Of a DNA stretch of 64,000 bases, positions 2,094 to 7,658 are shown one piece after another (position 1 is the first letter of the stretch; each line of letters starts with the position of its first letter). The DNA is from Acidaminococcus massiliensis. Lineage in GTDB: Bacteria; Bacillota; Negativicutes; Acidaminococcales; Acidaminococcaceae. The notes beneath the pieces are model-generated. The model worked only from the letters and a program-made list of their open reading frames with translations, did no database searches and had not been told where the DNA came from. The stretch lies in the NCBI RefSeq assembly GCF_900095825.1, contig NZ_LT608315.1, positions 983,873-1,047,872 of the forward strand, read 5' to 3'. A program made the translations under genes and the position numbers.

Positions 2094-2167
2094 TCCGGGA
2101 TGGTGTAATGGTAGCACAGGAGATTCTGGATCTTCTAGTCTGGGTTCGAGCCCTAGTCCCGGAGCCA
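2094..2167 (+). tRNA. tRNA-Gln (CTG), left copy
   Basis: A 74-nt cloverleaf with a perfect acceptor stem (TCCGGGA/TCCCGGA), D arm, anticodon loop TTCTGGA giving CTG, T arm CTGGG/CCTAG and an encoded CCA end. It is identical to the copy at 7431-7504. GatCAB encoded at 31-34 kb would be the amidation route to Gln-tRNA. Confidence 0.92.
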
Positions 2168-2191
2168 TTTTTTTATCTTGGCGCCATGGTC
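2094..2191 (+). repeat. left 98-bp direct repeat (att site) of the tRNA-integrated element
   Basis: These 98 bases recur without a difference at 7431-7528. The repeat holds the whole tRNA-Gln, the 12-base spacer and the first 12 bases of tRNA-Glu. Sequence identity stops abruptly on both sides, as expected for att sites made by site-specific integration. Confidence 0.85.
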
Positions 2192-2268
2192 GACAGCTTG
2201 CAAGCAAGCAGCAGCTAAGACGTCGCGAAACAAGGCGTGGCCACGAGTTTGCTTCTCTCACCGCTACA
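2180..2268 (+). pseudogene. decayed tRNA-Glu at the left end of the element
   Basis: After the first 12 bases of tRNA-Glu there is a 21-base insertion (from 2192), then blocks matching the intact tRNA-Glu at 7517-7591 in the same order: CTAAGACGTCGC, CAAGGCG, CACGAGTT, TTCTC and GCTA. The anticodon loop is destroyed. It reads as a degraded tRNA-Glu copy that was part of the element's attachment region. Confidence 0.65.
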
Positions 2269-2285
2269 AACCAATAGGAAACTTT

Positions 2286-2321
2286 AAGGCACTTAGGACA
2301 TATGTTCTAGGTGTCTTTTTT
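2286..2321 (+). terminator. intrinsic terminator after left tRNA region
   Basis: Bases 2286-2301 pair with 2302-2317, allowing three G-U pairs, and run into a T tract to 2321. It would stop tRNA transcription before the recombinase gene. Confidence 0.7.
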
Positions 2322-2506
2322 GCGTTGCTATCACACATAGAAGCACAAGAGACTAGATTCTTAACGTCTTTCTGTGTGACCAAAAGGGGGTATGTGTTAT
2401 CGAAAAGAGCCAAAAATACAGCCTTCAAGAGTCCCTGCAACTGTTCTATAGGCGCTGCATTGGCCTCAATTTAGCAGGTAGCACCCTAGAGAACTACAGG
2501 AAACAT

Positions 2507-3349
2507 TTGACCGACTATCTGTTATTCCTTTCTCAGACAAAGAATATAGAGACCATAGCAGAGACCACGAACAACACCATTCTACAATACCTTAAAAGCC
2601 TAAGAGGAAGGGGACTTTCACCTGTCACAGTGTCAGATAGGTTCATTGTATTGCGTGTCTTTTACAGCTTTTTGGTGGAATGGGGCTATCTGGAAAGCAA
2701 TCCCATGGAACACTTAAGGAAGCCTAAAGTTCCTAAGAGACACGCCAGGACGTTCACCACAAGCGAAATAATGGCAATCCTCAAGAGTTATGATAAGACC
2801 ACATTCTTAGGTTATAGGAATTACACGATTATGTGTATCCTATTCAGTACAGGTATGAGAAAGACAGAACTATTAAAGTTATCTGTCTTAGATATTCACC
2901 TGCAGGAATGCTTCTTAGTTGTGTTACATGGAAAGGGTGATAAGACAAGAGAAATACCTATTGGGCTATCATTGAGACGTATTCTAAAGAAGTACCTCAG
3001 AGACAGGGAAGAAGTGTTGCAGGAACATAGTTCTTTCACACCTCAATTCCTTGTGACTTTTACAGGGAAACCTTTGACAGCCTCAGGGCTTGACACAGTA
3101 TTCAAGCGTCTAAAAGAAAGTATGAGAGGCCTAGGGATACCTGCAAGTCGCCTATCAGCTCACACATGGCGCCATACGTTCGCTAAGACCTTTTTACTGA
3201 ATGGCGGTGACCTATTCACCCTACAGAAAATACTAGGTCATGAAGACGTGTCAACGACAAAGATTTATGTTGAATACACCAACAAAGAACTGAAAGTCCA
3301 GAACGACAAATACAATCCTTTGGATAATAACCAATGGCAATACCTGTGA
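2507..3349 (+). CDS. tyrosine recombinase (phage-type integrase)
   Basis: The C-terminal catalytic domain is clear: STGMRKTELLKLSV holds the first Arg, KGDKTREIPI the Lys strand, HTWRHTFAKTF the His-x-x-Arg pair, LGHEDVSTTKIYVEYT the second His and the nucleophilic Tyr. The SAM-like N-terminal core domain begins before the only standard in-frame start (TTG 2507): the same frame is open upstream from 2357 and encodes SLQESLQLFYRRC and GSTLENYRKHL, typical recombinase residues. No ATG, GTG or TTG lies there, so translation may begin at ATC 2399 or ATT 2357, or by a frameshift, or the gene may be 5'-damaged. It most probably catalyses integration and excision at the 98-bp repeats. Confidence 0.85.
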   Translation: MTDYLLFLSQTKNIETIAETTNNTILQYLKSLRGRGLSPVTVSDRFIVLRVFYSFLVEWGYLESNPMEHLRKPKVPKRHARTFTTSEIMAILKSYDKTTFLGYRNYTIMCILFSTGMRKTELLKLSVLDIHLQECFLVVLHGKGDKTREIPIGLSLRRILKKYLRDREEVLQEHSSFTPQFLVTFTGKPLTASGLDTVFKRLKESMRGLGIPASRLSAHTWRHTFAKTFLLNGGDLFTLQKILGHEDVSTTKIYVEYTNKELKVQNDKYNPLDNNQWQYL

Positions 3350-3371
3350 ATAAGAAGGGAGACCAAAGACT

Positions 3372-3896
3372 ATGGAAAGAACTACCGATAATGGCTTGCT
3401 TACATTCCATGAAATCACAGAGGAAGAGTACCTAAAACGGTATGTTATGGGTAAAGGTTCCTATATGACCTATAAGGAATTTGCTCAGAATATAGGGTGG
3501 GACCACAATAAAACAGACTTCCTTAAGACCTGTGTAAATCAGATGACCAATGAAACCATTAAGGAACTTATGGTCACTGGAAAGTTAACCTTTTACAGCC
3601 GTATGATATGGGATGAAGGTTTGTGGCTTATGTGGGATGGTGAATACAGAGACACTGTTACAATGAATCGTATGTATGACAAATTGTTGCCAGAGGTGGA
3701 ACTAATTGATATCACAGAGCCAGTAGAGGAGCTTTTAAGTGACTATATAGGAAGCAAGGTCAGCCTAAAGAAAGCCTTAAATCTTTCTCCTACTCACACA
3801 TGGAAAGCAGTTCAAGAAATGACAGCTACCACAGCAGAGAATCTTTCTTATGCTTTGTGGGGTTATAGTGGTGGTGTTTACATTCAGAACATTTAG
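3372..3896 (+). CDS. protein of unknown function in the integrated element (174 aa)
   Basis: It starts at ATG 3372, 22 bases after the recombinase stop, behind a GAAGGGAG ribosome-binding site, so it is probably co-transcribed with the recombinase. The sequence is rich in Trp, Tyr, Met and Thr, has no signal peptide or transmembrane segment, and shows a stretch resembling a small DNA-binding helix pair near residues 130-150 (SKVSLKKALNLSPTHTWKAV). I do not recognise the family. Position after an integrase would fit an excision or copy-control factor, but nothing in the sequence proves this. Confidence 0.6.
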   Translation: MERTTDNGLLTFHEITEEEYLKRYVMGKGSYMTYKEFAQNIGWDHNKTDFLKTCVNQMTNETIKELMVTGKLTFYSRMIWDEGLWLMWDGEYRDTVTMNRMYDKLLPEVELIDITEPVEELLSDYIGSKVSLKKALNLSPTHTWKAVQEMTATTAENLSYALWGYSGGVYIQNI

Positions 3897-4666
3897 AGGA
3901 TACTATATAAGATACCATGTGATACCTTATAGTTACTCTAAGTTGCCTCATGACACAGTGAAAGGATAAAAGACAGTAGGAAGTTAAGACAAAAGTTTAT
4001 AAAAACAGATAGAAGTAGATAGAAGTATAAATAGTAATTATTATTAAATTACTTTGTTTATTACCTCTGTCTACTTCCTTTTTATTTTATATGAGCTGTG
4101 TGAATACCTCTCCTATTAGTCGCCATGAGTTTACTATAGCTGCTATGAGACACTGAAGAATTCAGTAACTCATAGTTTCCTATAAGGTAACTCATGGAAA
4201 CTAATACATGACAAAAGTAGATGATACACAACTACCACCTTGTTCACCTTCTTTGTTGTCTATTACCTTTTTCCTTTTACAAAAACAACTACAACAACTA
4301 CCACCTTTGTCTTTTAAAAAAAGAGGTATAAAGTGTTAAAGGTTTTGAAGGTGGTATAAGTTTTTGAACATGGTAGAGGTAGTAGAGGACATATACTTTA
4401 GATACTGCATGGAATCCATTAGTTACCATATGGAATCTATGTATCTGTGTGATTCTCCCTATAGTGGGGGAAAAGTTTAGAAAAAAGCCCCCAAAAGTGA
4501 AAAAAGAAGTAGTATTTATGCGCTTCTACAGCCTTTTCCCTTAAAATATATAAAGAGAAAGTATAGGTAGTTGTGAATAAAAACTATAAGAAAACTGAAG
4601 CCCAAAAGTTACAATAATAAAAAATAAACAATAAAAGTGTAAACAAAGTATATTTTCCCTTTGCCT
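3897..4666. other. 770-base AT-rich non-coding stretch with repeats
   Basis: No credible gene is present. A 14-bp direct repeat (ACAACTACCACCTT) lies at 4228-4241 and 4294-4307, and part of it recurs inverted at 4348-4356. Near 4006-4025 the unit GATAGAAGTA is repeated. Long A and T runs flank these. Repeats of this kind beside a helicase gene could be a replication origin or a recombination control region; this is inference. Confidence 0.4.
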
Positions 4667-5998
4667 TTATTCTTCTAACCACTGTGTGAATAAGTTCCTC
4701 ATTCTCTCAGAGGGCAAGTATAAATGTATGGGGCTGTTGCTGTCATGAACACGGATATTTGAACGCCATACAAATTGTATAAGAAGTGACAAAGACCAAT
4801 TGTCAGCGTCTATAGGCTGTCCTAAAGTCTTCCAAAGGTTAGCAGTAAAGGGATTTAAGCATTTATTCACCCCGTACAGAATGGCTGTCTTGCTGTCATA
4901 TTCATTGGTCGCAAGTGCATTGTGTGCCAGGAAGTTATTTTTTGTGAGTCCCTTTTTACCATTGGTCAGCTTTCTTTCAGCCTCTTTGAAAGTTGTCCAT
5001 AAAATTTCATCACTTTTATACAATCTGGAAAAACTACTCATAGTATCTTTTAGCCTTTTTATATCCTTCTGTGTAGCTTTCTGGTGATACCATGAATAAG
5101 ATAATTCATAGCCTTTGTAACTTTTGGAATCTGGAATGGGCTCTACAATCATTCTTTCTAATCCTTTTGGCTTATCTCTTTTCAGACCTTCTATGAATGC
5201 TGTCATTTCCTCATTCACATGGTAGAAGGTAATAGGAAGGTGTGATAAGTTACAGTAGGCATTAAAGAAGCTGTATTCTGTTCTGTAACTCATGATGGTG
5301 ACAGTATCAAAGCAAGACCAAAAGTCTGCAGGTATAAAGTATTTGAGTTTAAGTTTATTGTCTTGCTTAATCCCATACACGTCATGCTGTTTGAAGAAGT
5401 CTCTAAAGCTGTCGTAAATTGTCCCTGTGTTGCCATAAGGGTTAGTATACAGTCTATGTGGGCTGTCTTCTGCCCCCTTCAATAACAGCCCTAAGGCTTC
5501 CATATTGTCTAAGTCTTTTTCACTCAGATTTTCCACAGGAACATAGAGTCCAGAAGATAACAGCCTATCAAGTTTTGAATCTGTGTCACTATCTCCTGTC
5601 TTTTCCTGCAACTCTTGTAATACTGTGGGTTCTTCATCGATGAACAAAGAGTACTTATAGGGAAAATTGGGGGCTGTTAAGGTGTCGTAAATGCGGGAAA
5701 AAGAACGTTGTAACAGTTCATGGGTGATAAAAACATTCTCACCATGGGGCAATAAGGTTCCTATAAGTTCTTTCCCCTTCCCCCTCTCTCTGGTGGGCTG
5801 TGTTACGTTTACCCCCATACCCTTCAGGCATTCCATGTTTGTTTCTATTTCTTTGATATAGGGTGATACACAGATAAATCTTTCCTTGTGGTCATCTTTG
5901 AATTGGCTGTACCTTTCCCCTAAGATATGCATTAGTGCAGTGGTTTTCCCTGCTCCTGTAGGGGCATCAACAATTCTAATTTCCTTCTTTTCTTTCAT
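4667..5998 (-). CDS. helicase-like P-loop ATPase of the integrated element
   Basis: The 443-aa product opens with a Walker A motif DAPTGAGKTTALMHIL (residues 10-25), followed by VSPYIKEIETN (like helicase motif Ia), a Walker B-like LFIDEEPTVL near residue 125, and near the C-terminus QFVWRSNIRV, which resembles the Gln/Arg motif VI of superfamily 2 helicases. The middle shows little similarity to anything I know. It is convergent with the recombinase operon and preceded on its own side by an imperfect tandem repeat at 6011-6112. A role in replication or mobilisation of the element is likely; a defence role cannot be excluded. Codon use is AT-rich, unlike the chromosomal genes. Confidence 0.65.
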   Translation of the reverse strand: MKEKKEIRIVDAPTGAGKTTALMHILGERYSQFKDDHKERFICVSPYIKEIETNMECLKGMGVNVTQPTRERGKGKELIGTLLPHGENVFITHELLQRSFSRIYDTLTAPNFPYKYSLFIDEEPTVLQELQEKTGDSDTDSKLDRLLSSGLYVPVENLSEKDLDNMEALGLLLKGAEDSPHRLYTNPYGNTGTIYDSFRDFFKQHDVYGIKQDNKLKLKYFIPADFWSCFDTVTIMSYRTEYSFFNAYCNLSHLPITFYHVNEEMTAFIEGLKRDKPKGLERMIVEPIPDSKSYKGYELSYSWYHQKATQKDIKRLKDTMSSFSRLYKSDEILWTTFKEAERKLTNGKKGLTKNNFLAHNALATNEYDSKTAILYGVNKCLNPFTANLWKTLGQPIDADNWSLSLLIQFVWRSNIRVHDSNSPIHLYLPSERMRNLFTQWLEE

Positions 5999-6010
5999 GG
6001 TTATTGCTCC

Positions 6011-6112
6011 TTTCTTTCTTCACTATGTGGGCCACTTAAAATTATCTGACAATTCCATGTGACTATCTTCTTTCTTCCCCTATGTGTGCCACCTTAAATT
6101 ATCTGATAATTC
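6011..6112. repeat. imperfect tandem repeat upstream of the helicase-like gene
   Basis: A unit of about 45 bases (6011-6055) recurs at 6067-6112. Both copies contain CTTTCTT, CTATGTG, GCCAC, TTAAA and ATTATCTGA in the same order. The first copy begins 13 bases upstream of the helicase start, so it may be an operator or iteron pair controlling that gene. Confidence 0.5.
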
Positions 6113-6564
6113 TGTTACAAATATTACACAATAACATTGAAAGAGTGAGAACCTATGCCACTGTTCCACTTAGAGAAAAGAAGAACTTCCTTCTTTGTGT
6201 GTGATACCTTTTGTTTACCCTTTAGCCAACTTCACACCTTGCGTTTAAATCGTTTATAAGCCTCTTTATTTTAATGTGAATGGAATTCACCTACAAAACT
6301 ATAAAACCTCTCAGAAACGAAATATGGAAGCGTGAGAGGCATTGTAGAGAGACCAAAAGTGTGGGGAGAAATCACGGGGGTTACTAAAGTGTTCCCATGT
6401 GTCAAAAGGCACACTTTTAGACAGAGAGAATTTAGAGTTATCTTTACGTGTCTAAAAGTTAAACAAAGGATATTGAAATACACCAAAAATAAGATTGACA
6501 TTTTGAAATACGCGAATTAGAATTAAATCATCACAAGAAATGAAAACAAAGGGAGTGAAAGACA
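6113..6564. other. non-coding stretch ahead of the serine recombinase
   Basis: No supported gene. The unit TTGAAATAC occurs twice (near 6474 and 6503) within 90 bases of the recombinase start, with further AT-rich inverted segments. A resolution site would be expected here, but I cannot define its boundaries. Confidence 0.3.
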
Positions 6565-7137
6565 ATGGCTAATGTGTGTTATATCAGAGTATCAACCAAA
6601 GACCAAAACACAGGGAGACAACACGCCTGCTTTACTGACAAAGGAATTAAGATTGATAAGACCTATGAAGAAAAGATAAGTGGGAAGGATAGACAAAGAC
6701 CACAGTTAAAGGCTATGATGGACTACGTGAGAGAGGGAGACACAGTATATATTGAAAGTATCAGCAGACTAGCAAGAAATACATTAGACTTCCTTAACAT
6801 TGTGGACGAACTCACAAAGAAGAAGGTAAACCTTATCAGCCTTAAGGAACAAATTGATACCACCACACCACAGGGAAGATTTATTCTTCACATATTTGCT
6901 TCTCTGTCTGAACTGGAAAGAGAGACCATAAGACAGAGACAAAGGGAAGGGATTGACCTGTGTCTTTCTGAACATAGGCCCTATGGTAGACCAAAGGTGA
7001 TTATTGATGACACATTCAAAGAAGCCTACAAAGAATGGAAAGCAGGAAAGGTAACAGCAGTGCAGGCAATGACCAAAGCAGGGATGAAGCCTAACACGTG
7101 GTATAGAAGAGTCAAAGAGTTTGAAGGGAGACAATGA
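6565..7137 (+). CDS. serine recombinase (resolvase/invertase family)
   Basis: A 190-aa protein with the resolvase catalytic domain: YIRVSTKDQNTGRQ holds the nucleophilic Ser10, ESISRLARNTLDFL carries the conserved Arg motif, TTTPQGRFILHIFASLSELERE is the hinge to the long E helix, and RQREGIDL precedes a short C-terminal helix-turn-helix (VTAVQAMTKAGMKPNTWYRRV). Length matches small resolvases rather than large serine integrases. ATG 6565 is preceded by GGGAGTGA. In an element that already has an integrase, it probably resolves multimers of a circular form; inversion is an alternative. A terminator follows directly. Confidence 0.9.
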   Translation: MANVCYIRVSTKDQNTGRQHACFTDKGIKIDKTYEEKISGKDRQRPQLKAMMDYVREGDTVYIESISRLARNTLDFLNIVDELTKKKVNLISLKEQIDTTTPQGRFILHIFASLSELERETIRQRQREGIDLCLSEHRPYGRPKVIIDDTFKEAYKEWKAGKVTAVQAMTKAGMKPNTWYRRVKEFEGRQ

Positions 7138-7141
7138 AATA

Positions 7142-7177
7142 AGGGTGACTGTCCTACATGTGATGGTCACTCTTTTT
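7142..7177 (+). terminator. intrinsic terminator after the serine recombinase
   Basis: Arms 7142-7149 and 7166-7173 (one G-U pair) are followed by T7173-7177. Confidence 0.6.
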
Positions 7178-7307
7178 CTGTGTGAATATACCTTTAGGCA
7201 TTTTTTGGCTGCCCCTGTGGTGTCTTGTGGGGGCTACGGGGGATTCACAGGAATGCGGGACGAATATATATGGGCTCACAGATTTTTTGTAAATTTTCAT
7301 TTTTAGG

Positions 7308-7337
7308 TTGACAGAGAGAAAAAGGGTGTAGTATACT
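7308..7337 (+). promoter_or_regulatory. outward promoter at the right end of the element
   Basis: TTGACA (7308-7313) and TATACT (7332-7337) with an 18-base gap point at the right tRNA-Gln/tRNA-Glu pair. The element thus appears to supply a strong promoter for the restored tRNAs. Confidence 0.65.
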
Positions 7338-7430
7338 ATTCAAGCAACACAAGAGATTCTTGAACTTTTACAAGTCCAAAAGTGCATTAGAGTTTCCCGA
7401 AAGGTAGTCGGGGCCTAATGTTTTGTTTCT

Positions 7431-7504
7431 TCCGGGATGGTGTAATGGTAGCACAGGAGATTCTGGATCTTCTAGTCTGGGTTCGAGCCCTAGTCCCGGA
7501 GCCA
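7431..7504 (+). tRNA. tRNA-Gln (CTG), right copy
   Basis: Identical in all 74 bases to the left copy, with anticodon CTG and encoded CCA. Confidence 0.92.
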
Positions 7505-7528
7505 TTTTTTTATCTTGGCGCCATGGTC
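7431..7528 (+). repeat. right 98-bp direct repeat (att site) of the element
   Basis: Identical to 2094-2191. It joins seamlessly to the rest of an intact tRNA-Glu, so this side represents the native junction. Confidence 0.85.
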
Positions 7529-7591
7529 AAGCGGCTAAGACGTCGCCCTCTCAAGGCGAAATCACGAGTTCGATTCTCGTTGGCGCTACCA
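7517..7591 (+). tRNA. tRNA-Glu (CTC)
   Basis: A 75-nt cloverleaf: acceptor GGCGCCA/TGGCGCT (one G-T pair), anticodon stem TCGCC/GGCGA around loop CTCTCAA, T arm ACGAG/CTCGT and CCA end. It follows tRNA-Gln by 12 bases, so both are probably one transcript. Confidence 0.92.
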
Positions 7592-7658
7592 GGTCAATAC
7601 GTAGGAATCCCCTATGGGCCATGCACTCGTGAGGATGGAACTGCATCATATAAAACGC

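Follow-up and report, generated by a model that had tools for sequence, protein, structure and literature searches.

A putative 5.3-kb integrative element at the tRNA-Gln/tRNA-Glu operon of Acidaminococcus massiliensis and its relatives at other structured RNA genes

Site-specific integration into tRNA genes is long-established knowledge. In the island catalogue built with Islander, as set out in the available part of that report, 3760 of 3919 islands have a 3′ fragment displaced and 159 a 5′ fragment, and hits inside full-length tRNA genes are rejected (PMC4383910). With very few exceptions, the original promoter is retained at bacterial tRNA targets, and targeting of the 5′ half with expression from the element is seldom met in bacteria, according to the accessible sections of a second paper (PMC8371274). 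For pHS87b, a small element of Pseudomonas aeruginosa, the polymerase chain reaction (PCR) showed both circular and integrated forms, in the portion of its description available here (PMC4739549). The subject of this study is a 64,000-nucleotide stretch of A. massiliensis (NZ_LT608315.1, positions 983,873 to 1,047,872), hereafter the window, and within it a segment at positions 2094–7528. This segment is probably (roughly 75%) an integrative element that entered the tRNA-Gln/tRNA-Glu operon by site-specific recombination and restored its target.

The segment is bounded by an exact direct repeat of 98 bp (2094–2191 on the integrase side and 7431–7528 at the distal end, both on the forward strand), and a looser alignment extends this to 103 nt at 98% identity. 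Each copy consists of a whole tRNA-Gln(CTG) gene (2094–2167 and 7431–7504), a spacer and the first 12 nt of tRNA-Glu(CTC); the distal copy runs into the intact host tRNA-Glu(CTC) at 7517–7591 on the same strand. These identical ends had been described in the initial annotation, with which the tRNA calls agree. The annotation let the left copy stop after 12 nt of tRNA-Glu and thereby missed a decayed tRNA-Glu that follows it (2192–2280, forward strand; aligned part about 2210–2276). Its alignment to 7529–7600 scores 54.5 against a shuffle maximum of 34 (n = 1000), and none of 1000 shuffles was as good when wider stretches were compared. We read this remnant as the 3′ arm of the attachment site of the element. 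Repeat spacing gives an element size of 5337 bp. The GC (guanine plus cytosine) content of the segment is 0.386, compared with a mean of 0.543 (standard deviation 0.029, minimum 0.427) over 103 overlapping 5.2-kb windows in the rest of the stretch. The window lies on a 2.63-Mb contig, one of four, and the complete element is present as a single copy in the genome. Whole tRNA-Gln genes stand at both ends, which departs from the Islander rule of an intact tRNA gene at one end and a fragment at the other.

The locus carries tRNA-Gln and tRNA-Glu sequence in all nine Acidaminococcus genomes, including that of A. massiliensis, and the segment is absent from it in all eight congeners, which represent other species of the genus and not the same species. 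Direct repeats of the target sequence at both ends are therefore accompanied by an empty site in relatives, the combination by which islands are recognized. Four congeners (G001, G002, G004 and G008) have one plain Gln–Glu pair, and joining the window flanks in silico yields a single pair as in G004. Strains with two tandem tRNA pairs and no element, which the initial annotation had named as evidence that the repeats came first, were looked for and found in none of the eight.

Two congeners, G006 and G007, do carry an extra tRNA-Gln with no element there, and a duplicated tRNA-Gln could consequently predate the insertion. In both, one tRNA-Gln is followed after about 110 bp by a Gln–Glu pair; the two tRNA-Gln copies are identical within each genome, and the spacer holds, as read by eye, a terminator-like stretch and a promoter of its own. 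These are also the closest relatives (91.1% and 91.4% identity over 2476 bp of the right flank). The right flank of the window aligns with theirs at 84–90% identity, and the left promoter region of the window matches their first-Gln promoter at 91% and 88%. Foreign DNA might accordingly have landed between two pre-existing copies, in which case the repeats would not be attachment sites at all. This scenario is very improbable in view of three observations: the left copy of the window continues into TTGGCGCCATGGTC and the decayed tRNA-Glu, unlike the first tRNA-Gln of G006 and G007; the right copy lacks the promoter found in those genomes; and the repeats of related elements elsewhere are made of whichever RNA gene is occupied. 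The extra tRNA-Gln of G006 and G007 may be an older duplication or the scar of an earlier element.

Other insertions were observed at the same operon. In G003 and G005, other DNA (about 2.9 and 2.6 kb, respectively) separates Gln from Glu: a MarR-like gene and an oxidoreductase gene in G003 (L046 5678–8556), and another integrase with a CI-like repressor in G005 (L045 5454–8069), all named by eye. Directly left of the tRNA in the window, a region encoding a DUF4143-type ATPase (745–2014) is without a counterpart at this locus in G006 and G007, and marks a second event, insertion or loss, next to this operon. The tRNA-Gln/Glu operon looks like an insertion hot spot.

The search for related elements covered 59 Acidaminococcaceae genomes. 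Integrase matches at E ≤ 1e-40 occur in ten of them, and seven matches in six genomes reach E ≤ 1.4e-69, the window integrase included. All seven are accompanied by the helicase-like ATPase, which by itself is found in 17 of the 59 genomes. In six cases the two genes share a contig; in G006 they lie across the ends of contigs C3 and C30, which we take as one element. All seven elements lie in structured RNA genes, namely tRNA-Gln/Glu (window), tRNA-Leu (L087), tRNA-Ser (G006), RNase P RNA (L049 and L077) and the flavin mononucleotide (FMN) riboswitch (L048 and L076). Repeat spacing gives sizes of 6357 bp (L087), 5743 bp (L048), 5024 bp (L076), 10843 bp (L049) and 11420 bp (L077). Five of the six relatives have an exact repeat of at least 31 bp with RNA-gene sequence at both ends, the exception being L076, whose sole repeat is imperfect and 35 nt long. 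In L087, from another genus, copies of tRNA-Leu(gag) lie in a 124-bp exact repeat that also takes in the end of the tRNA-Leu(cag) before it. The rnpB elements L049 and L077 have exact repeats of 107 and 99 bp comprising about 50 bp of upstream DNA and about 52 nt from the 5′ end of the gene, L048 retains a whole decayed second aptamer, and the G006 element has a 31-bp 3′ fragment of tRNA-Ser at its far end.

Gene order is also shared. The arrangement of RNA gene, integrase, uncharacterized gene, noncoding region, ATPase and resolvase is common to the window, G006 and L087; L087 differs by extra genes and a resolvase turned round, and G006 by an additional gene for a single-stranded DNA (ssDNA)-binding protein. 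The check suggested in the initial annotation, a search for similar gene sets at tRNA repeats in other genomes, thus returned in L087 the same order of integrase, unknown, ATPase and resolvase genes between two tRNA-Leu(gag) copies. Because eight of eight congeners lack the segment and six relatives lie at RNA genes, the tRNA-Gln/Glu operon is well supported as the attachment site, and the annotation stands in calling the segment an integrated element there; its further label of "plasmid-like" is possible but unproven. Between the G006 element and that of the window, identity is 68% for the integrase, 34–39% for the ATPase and 94% for the resolvase, and the resolvase module is 89.5% identical at the DNA level over 735 bp; such unequal values imply that modules have been exchanged. 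Furthermore, near the end of the YonV-type ATPase gene, the G006 element is split by insertion-sequence-like ends (L102 1–120 and L047 14670–14801, by eye).

The tyrosine integrase is encoded at 2399–3349 (forward strand, 316 codons, apparent ATC start), 208 bp from the left repeat, and the serine resolvase/invertase at 6565–7137 (forward strand, 190 aa). The presence of both recombinase types, as initially annotated, was confirmed by a PF00589 match at E = 6e-31 for the former and a resolvase domain at E = 2e-39 for the latter. The residues R..HxxR..H..Y, which we take to be the catalytic motif of tyrosine integrases, are conserved in the aligned columns, so that a complete integrase, with a doubtful start, lies beside the attachment site. 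A terminator-like hairpin (2286–2317, forward strand) in the interval between the decayed tRNA-Glu and the integrase gene is weak, since three such hairpins were found in the region and 4.0 are expected in shuffles.

At class level, ten integrases in nine of 380 genomes reach E ≤ 1e-55, and they form one branch with support of 100/100 against seven other tyrosine recombinases. In a sample of the phylum, only the genome of the window itself, one of 398, has a match at this threshold. Each of the ten clade members has a complete or partial RNA gene of the same orientation next to it, and starts roughly 120–330 bp past that gene. The five next-best integrases have no RNA gene in the stretches examined (0/5) and group in the tree with one of the other recombinases of the A. 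massiliensis genome; they therefore serve as an expected-negative control. Beyond the seven elements, the clade targets are tRNA-Ala (L111), tRNA-Arg (L112) and, in L113, a 40-nt 5′ half of tRNA-Gly that was read by eye and has no ARAGORN or Rfam call. The two FMN integrases pair in the tree, as do the two rnpB integrases, a pattern that would follow if target choice lay with the integrase. The 73 plasmid records and 37 phage records matched by the integrase are all below 60% identity, with 32.7% and 34.5% in the respective top-ranked rows.

The mechanism that we favor would start with recombination by the element's own tyrosine integrase between the host operon (attB) and the same sequence on a circular element (attP), with the crossover presumably within the 98 bp. 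One arm of attP would carry a promoter and a whole tRNA-Gln, and the integrase arm, the 3′ side, would have ended in a tRNA-Glu copy that has since decayed. After integration, the host promoter would drive the left tRNA-Gln, and an element promoter the right tRNA-Gln together with the host tRNA-Glu, such that both tRNAs survive. The excised circle would carry one tRNA-Gln between the two arms. The same integrase clade would have moved among other structured RNA genes.

The candidate for the element promoter is a sigma-70-like sequence, TTGACA-18-TATACT, at 7308–7337 (forward strand), directed into the distal tRNA-Gln/tRNA-Glu. It matches the consensus at 11 of 12 positions, and none of 300 shuffles of the 150-bp stretch was as good. 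Across the 5.7-kb region, 15 promoter-like sites were found and 14.8 are expected in shuffles; because this count is at shuffle level, only its place and strength favor the site at 7308–7337. A strong promoter-like site occurs 123 bp before the distal repeat in both the window and L087 (0/300 shuffles each). In the G006 element, no such site precedes the 3′ fragment; there, the integrase-side tRNA is whole and the far end holds the 3′ fragment, which is the ordinary arrangement. In L048, L076 and L049, the RNA is whole at the far end and the integrase side has a 5′ part or a decayed copy, from which it follows that the far copy uses a 5′ part supplied by the element. An entire tRNA stands at either end of the window element and of L087.

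Taken broadly, across tRNA loci of six kinds, RNase P RNA and the FMN riboswitch, we give about an even chance to the idea that this clade has repeatedly switched among structured RNA genes, kept its targets alive in either direction and made essential RNA dependent on the element. "Either direction" means that the element carries the 3′ end of its target (tRNA-Ser) or a promoter and 5′ part (rnpB, FMN riboswitch, tRNA-Gln/Glu). If such promoter takeover is real, loss of the host arrangement could make the element costly to lose, amounting to addiction without a toxin.

Several observations weigh against the favored mechanism. The promoter at 7308–7337 is a prediction from sequence. In L048 the promoter-like site is no more than suggestive (27 of 300 shuffles equal it), and no strong site lies within 150 bp before the distal RNA gene in L076, L049 or L077 (209, 71 and 68 of 300 shuffles, respectively), although the upstream DNA of about 50 bp within the rnpB repeats is native. 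The integrase-side riboswitch piece of L076 is weak (15.5 bits, E = 0.43), the weakest in the clade. The distal rnpB of L077 (12907–13052) has a large internal deletion and is the sole rnpB match in that incomplete metagenome-assembled genome; either restoration fails there or the assembly is wrong. L111–L113 have no second end and no YonV match in the stretches examined, so the integrase clade is not tied to the YonV-type helicase. The resolvase is found in just three of the seven elements (identity to the window copy is 94% in G006 and 58% in L087, and the remaining four gave no match), and is thus dispensable in the family and not a core gene. No arm-type integrase repeats in the window reached significance (14 comparisons with 300 shuffles each over the whole element set), and those in G006 (3/300), L076 (9/300) and L077 (13/300) are suggestive. 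Separately, a 15-bp inverted repeat common to both arms of L087 (6875–6889 and 12889–12903; 0/300 shuffles) provides candidate integrase arm sites.

The integrase start is a further difficulty. ATG, GTG and TTG are absent from the frame between the upstream stop and 2507, and a start at 2507 would remove the N-terminal domain; the best-placed start appears to be ATC at 2399, which suggests weak expression or decay. This copy may therefore excise rarely. Carried further, the segment could be a dead relic, an old element that lost its integrase start and became immobile, with the tRNA duplication as its scar. Such an outcome, which is compatible with an integrative origin and to which the decayed 3′ arm also points, is unlikely: a G-rich run ends 8 nt 5′ of the ATC, and the reading frames for integrase, ATPase and resolvase run uninterrupted along the whole length seen in related proteins.

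Apart from the recombinases, the segment encodes two proteins, a helicase-like ATPase and a 174-aa protein without family, as initially described; the accompanying description as repeat-rich DNA is weak, since repeats inside the element are only short, low-score tandem or direct ones, such as two 46-nt direct repeats that are 78% alike (6010–6112). The 174-aa protein (3372–3896, forward strand) lies directly 3′ of the integrase gene. The equivalent position in four of the relatives (G006, L048, L076 and L087, out of six) is likewise taken by uncharacterized proteins, with no significant sequence match between the 174-aa protein and these, and a single-protein search of viral contigs gave no relative. 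Its fold model was discarded (predicted local distance difference test score, pLDDT, 33.7). By position, it is a candidate excision or replication partner.

The ATPase (4667–5998, reverse strand, 443 aa) belongs to the YonV family. Residues 2–441 align with positions 5–421 of the 502-position phrog_2467 profile (E = 5e-45), identity to YonV of phage SPbeta is 25%, and the best Pfam match, a DEAD-like domain at E = 7e-4, falls below the Pfam cut-off. Relatives were found in 47 phage records, 28 plasmid records and 45 viral loci; the 40 phage records listed span 87–134 kb, and 18 of the 45 viral loci are on contigs of at least 98 kb. The viral loci were found with an alignment query; as a single query, the helicase sequence retrieved no relative from genome or viral contigs. 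Within the family's wider range, YonV relatives are common in the Acidaminococcaceae genus g13 (L050, L051, L053, L079–L086 and L088–L090), with no RNA-targeting integrase match in the stretches examined. On one viral contig (L143 1–10918), a tRNA cluster precedes genes for an integrase, a replication-like product, a relative of YonV, a head protease fused to the major head protein, and a tail protein. With its integrase and YonV relative beside tRNA-Leu, L143 was considered as a family member and rejected because head and tail genes are present; it looks like a prophage or a capsid-bearing satellite.

An AlphaFold2 model built from the window protein and 29 viral relatives (pLDDT 80, predicted template modelling score 0.82) is predicted to adopt the two-domain superfamily 2 (SF2) helicase fold of XPD/DinG type. 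DinG/XPD chains lead both structure lists, with a best Z of 18.0 (root-mean-square deviation 4.6, 344 aligned, model residues 4–442), ahead of other SF2 helicases at Z of about 15–16, and the best Foldseek match is an XPD at E = 7e-7. The stretch QFVWRSNIR resembles motif VI of this group. Cysteines for an iron–sulphur cluster, which we assume to be a feature of XPD/DinG proteins, are neither invariant nor nearly so in the 7- and 30-row alignments. A PDB sequence search with the helicase profile returned nothing at E < 0.01; at E of about 0.27 it showed weak similarity at Walker A to the origin-binding proteins of herpesviruses. We take the protein to be a compact SF2 helicase that may act in replication of the element, a role helped by the gp2.5-like ssDNA-binding protein that adjoins it in G006.

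Between the 174-aa protein and ATPase genes lies an AT-rich noncoding region (3897–4666, GC about 0.31–0.38, weak repeats) that is a candidate replication origin. Upstream of the resolvase, conserved DNA at 6405–6564, within the 735-bp stretch shared with the G006 element, contains an 11-bp inverted pair read by eye (6413–6423/6449–6459) and is a candidate res site; with it, the serine resolvase would probably resolve multimers.

As to the type of element, searches of the four proteins against Pfam and PHROGs recognized no relaxase or conjugation genes and no structural or packaging genes, and no AlpA regulator or primase when NCBIfam was added. The diagnostic genes of a prophage, an integrative and conjugative element or an integrative and mobilizable element are thus absent among the four proteins, and these classes were rejected, in line with the initial annotation. 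A defence island was likewise rejected, the only matches being weak ones of the helicase to Cas3-type proteins and a stray one, also weak, of the 174-aa protein. As no transfer or packaging gene was recognized, cell-to-cell transfer must need outside help.

Two more specific interpretations, both compatible with integration at the tRNA operon, are about equally likely, and each is held tentatively. The first is a small phage satellite, excised and replicated upon helper infection and packaged by the helper, in which YonV and the 174-aa protein serve replication or excision and the resolvase settles concatemers. Besides the lack of any recognized structural, relaxase or known Rep gene, this fits the many phage and viral relatives of YonV and the extra genes of related elements, a gp2.5-like ssDNA-binding protein in G006 and an anti-repressor in L087. 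The missing AlpA, primase and packaging genes and the absence of an identified helper argue against it, and resolvases are equally usual on plasmids. The second is an integrative plasmid that switches between a circular and a chromosomal form, has a YonV-dependent origin and is kept monomeric by the resolvase. YonV relatives do occur on Macrococcoides plasmids of 10.5 and 11.9 kb typed as non-mobilizable, and the matching noncoding region of the G006 element holds a 42-bp tandem repeat of 2.3 copies (L102 410–507), a possible iteron array. The window region has no clear iteron array, however, a blastn comparison of the element DNA with 72,556 plasmid records and 50,697 phage records gave no match, and the plasmid-borne integrase matches are the distant ones noted above. 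Exact attachment-site patterns gave no match in viral sequences and one in genomes, in Acidaminococcus fermentans.

The integrative element at the tRNA-Gln/tRNA-Glu operon shares traits with several described systems. PICMI satellites, in the accessible text of their description, resemble it in size (about 6 kb, eight copies being about 49 kb), in gene economy and in a small uncharacterized gene beside the integrase; the PICMI site adjoins fis, and the window element has no recognized AlpA or primase (PMC10803314). pHS87b offers a precedent for the plasmid interpretation, as it is small, integrates at a tRNA gene and has no known replication gene, and it differs in its 11.2-kb size, 45-bp repeat from the tRNA 3′ end and other genes (PMC4739549, available part). 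The helicase matches SPbeta YonV through the phrog_2467 profile end to end, the difference being that YonV resides in large phages. In the portions available, the literature on SPbeta yonV deals with its transcript and assigns the protein no function, and a review of SPbeta describes replication as uninvestigated; the family gains a testable prediction, that of a DinG/XPD-like helicase encoded by an element much smaller than SPbeta.

Among the matches listed in open-licence literature, none presents rnpB, RNase P RNA or the FMN riboswitch as an integrase target, "RNase P" being mentioned once, in a Haloferax paper, and none describes two-way restoration or a link between this clade and YonV on 5–11 kb elements; PMC12884075 has no occurrence of rnpB, riboswitch or RNase P. 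Like the tRNA and tmRNA islands of Islander, the window element places a tyrosine integrase by a tRNA attachment site whose attP restores the target, and it differs by duplicating a whole tRNA where those islands usually have a 3′ fragment (PMC4383910, as far as available). Because the Islander filter rejects hits in full-length tRNA genes, whole-tRNA elements would be missed and may be under-counted. In the window, a promoter brought by the element appears to have taken over the host tRNA-Glu, and related elements appear to do much the same at rnpB and the FMN riboswitch. A parallel is found in the pTN3-like archaeal elements, whose attB occupies the 5′ half of a tRNA gene, with the restored tRNA expressed from an element promoter; those elements differ in being archaeal and in using the promoter of the integrase, according to the part of the source at hand (PMC8371274).

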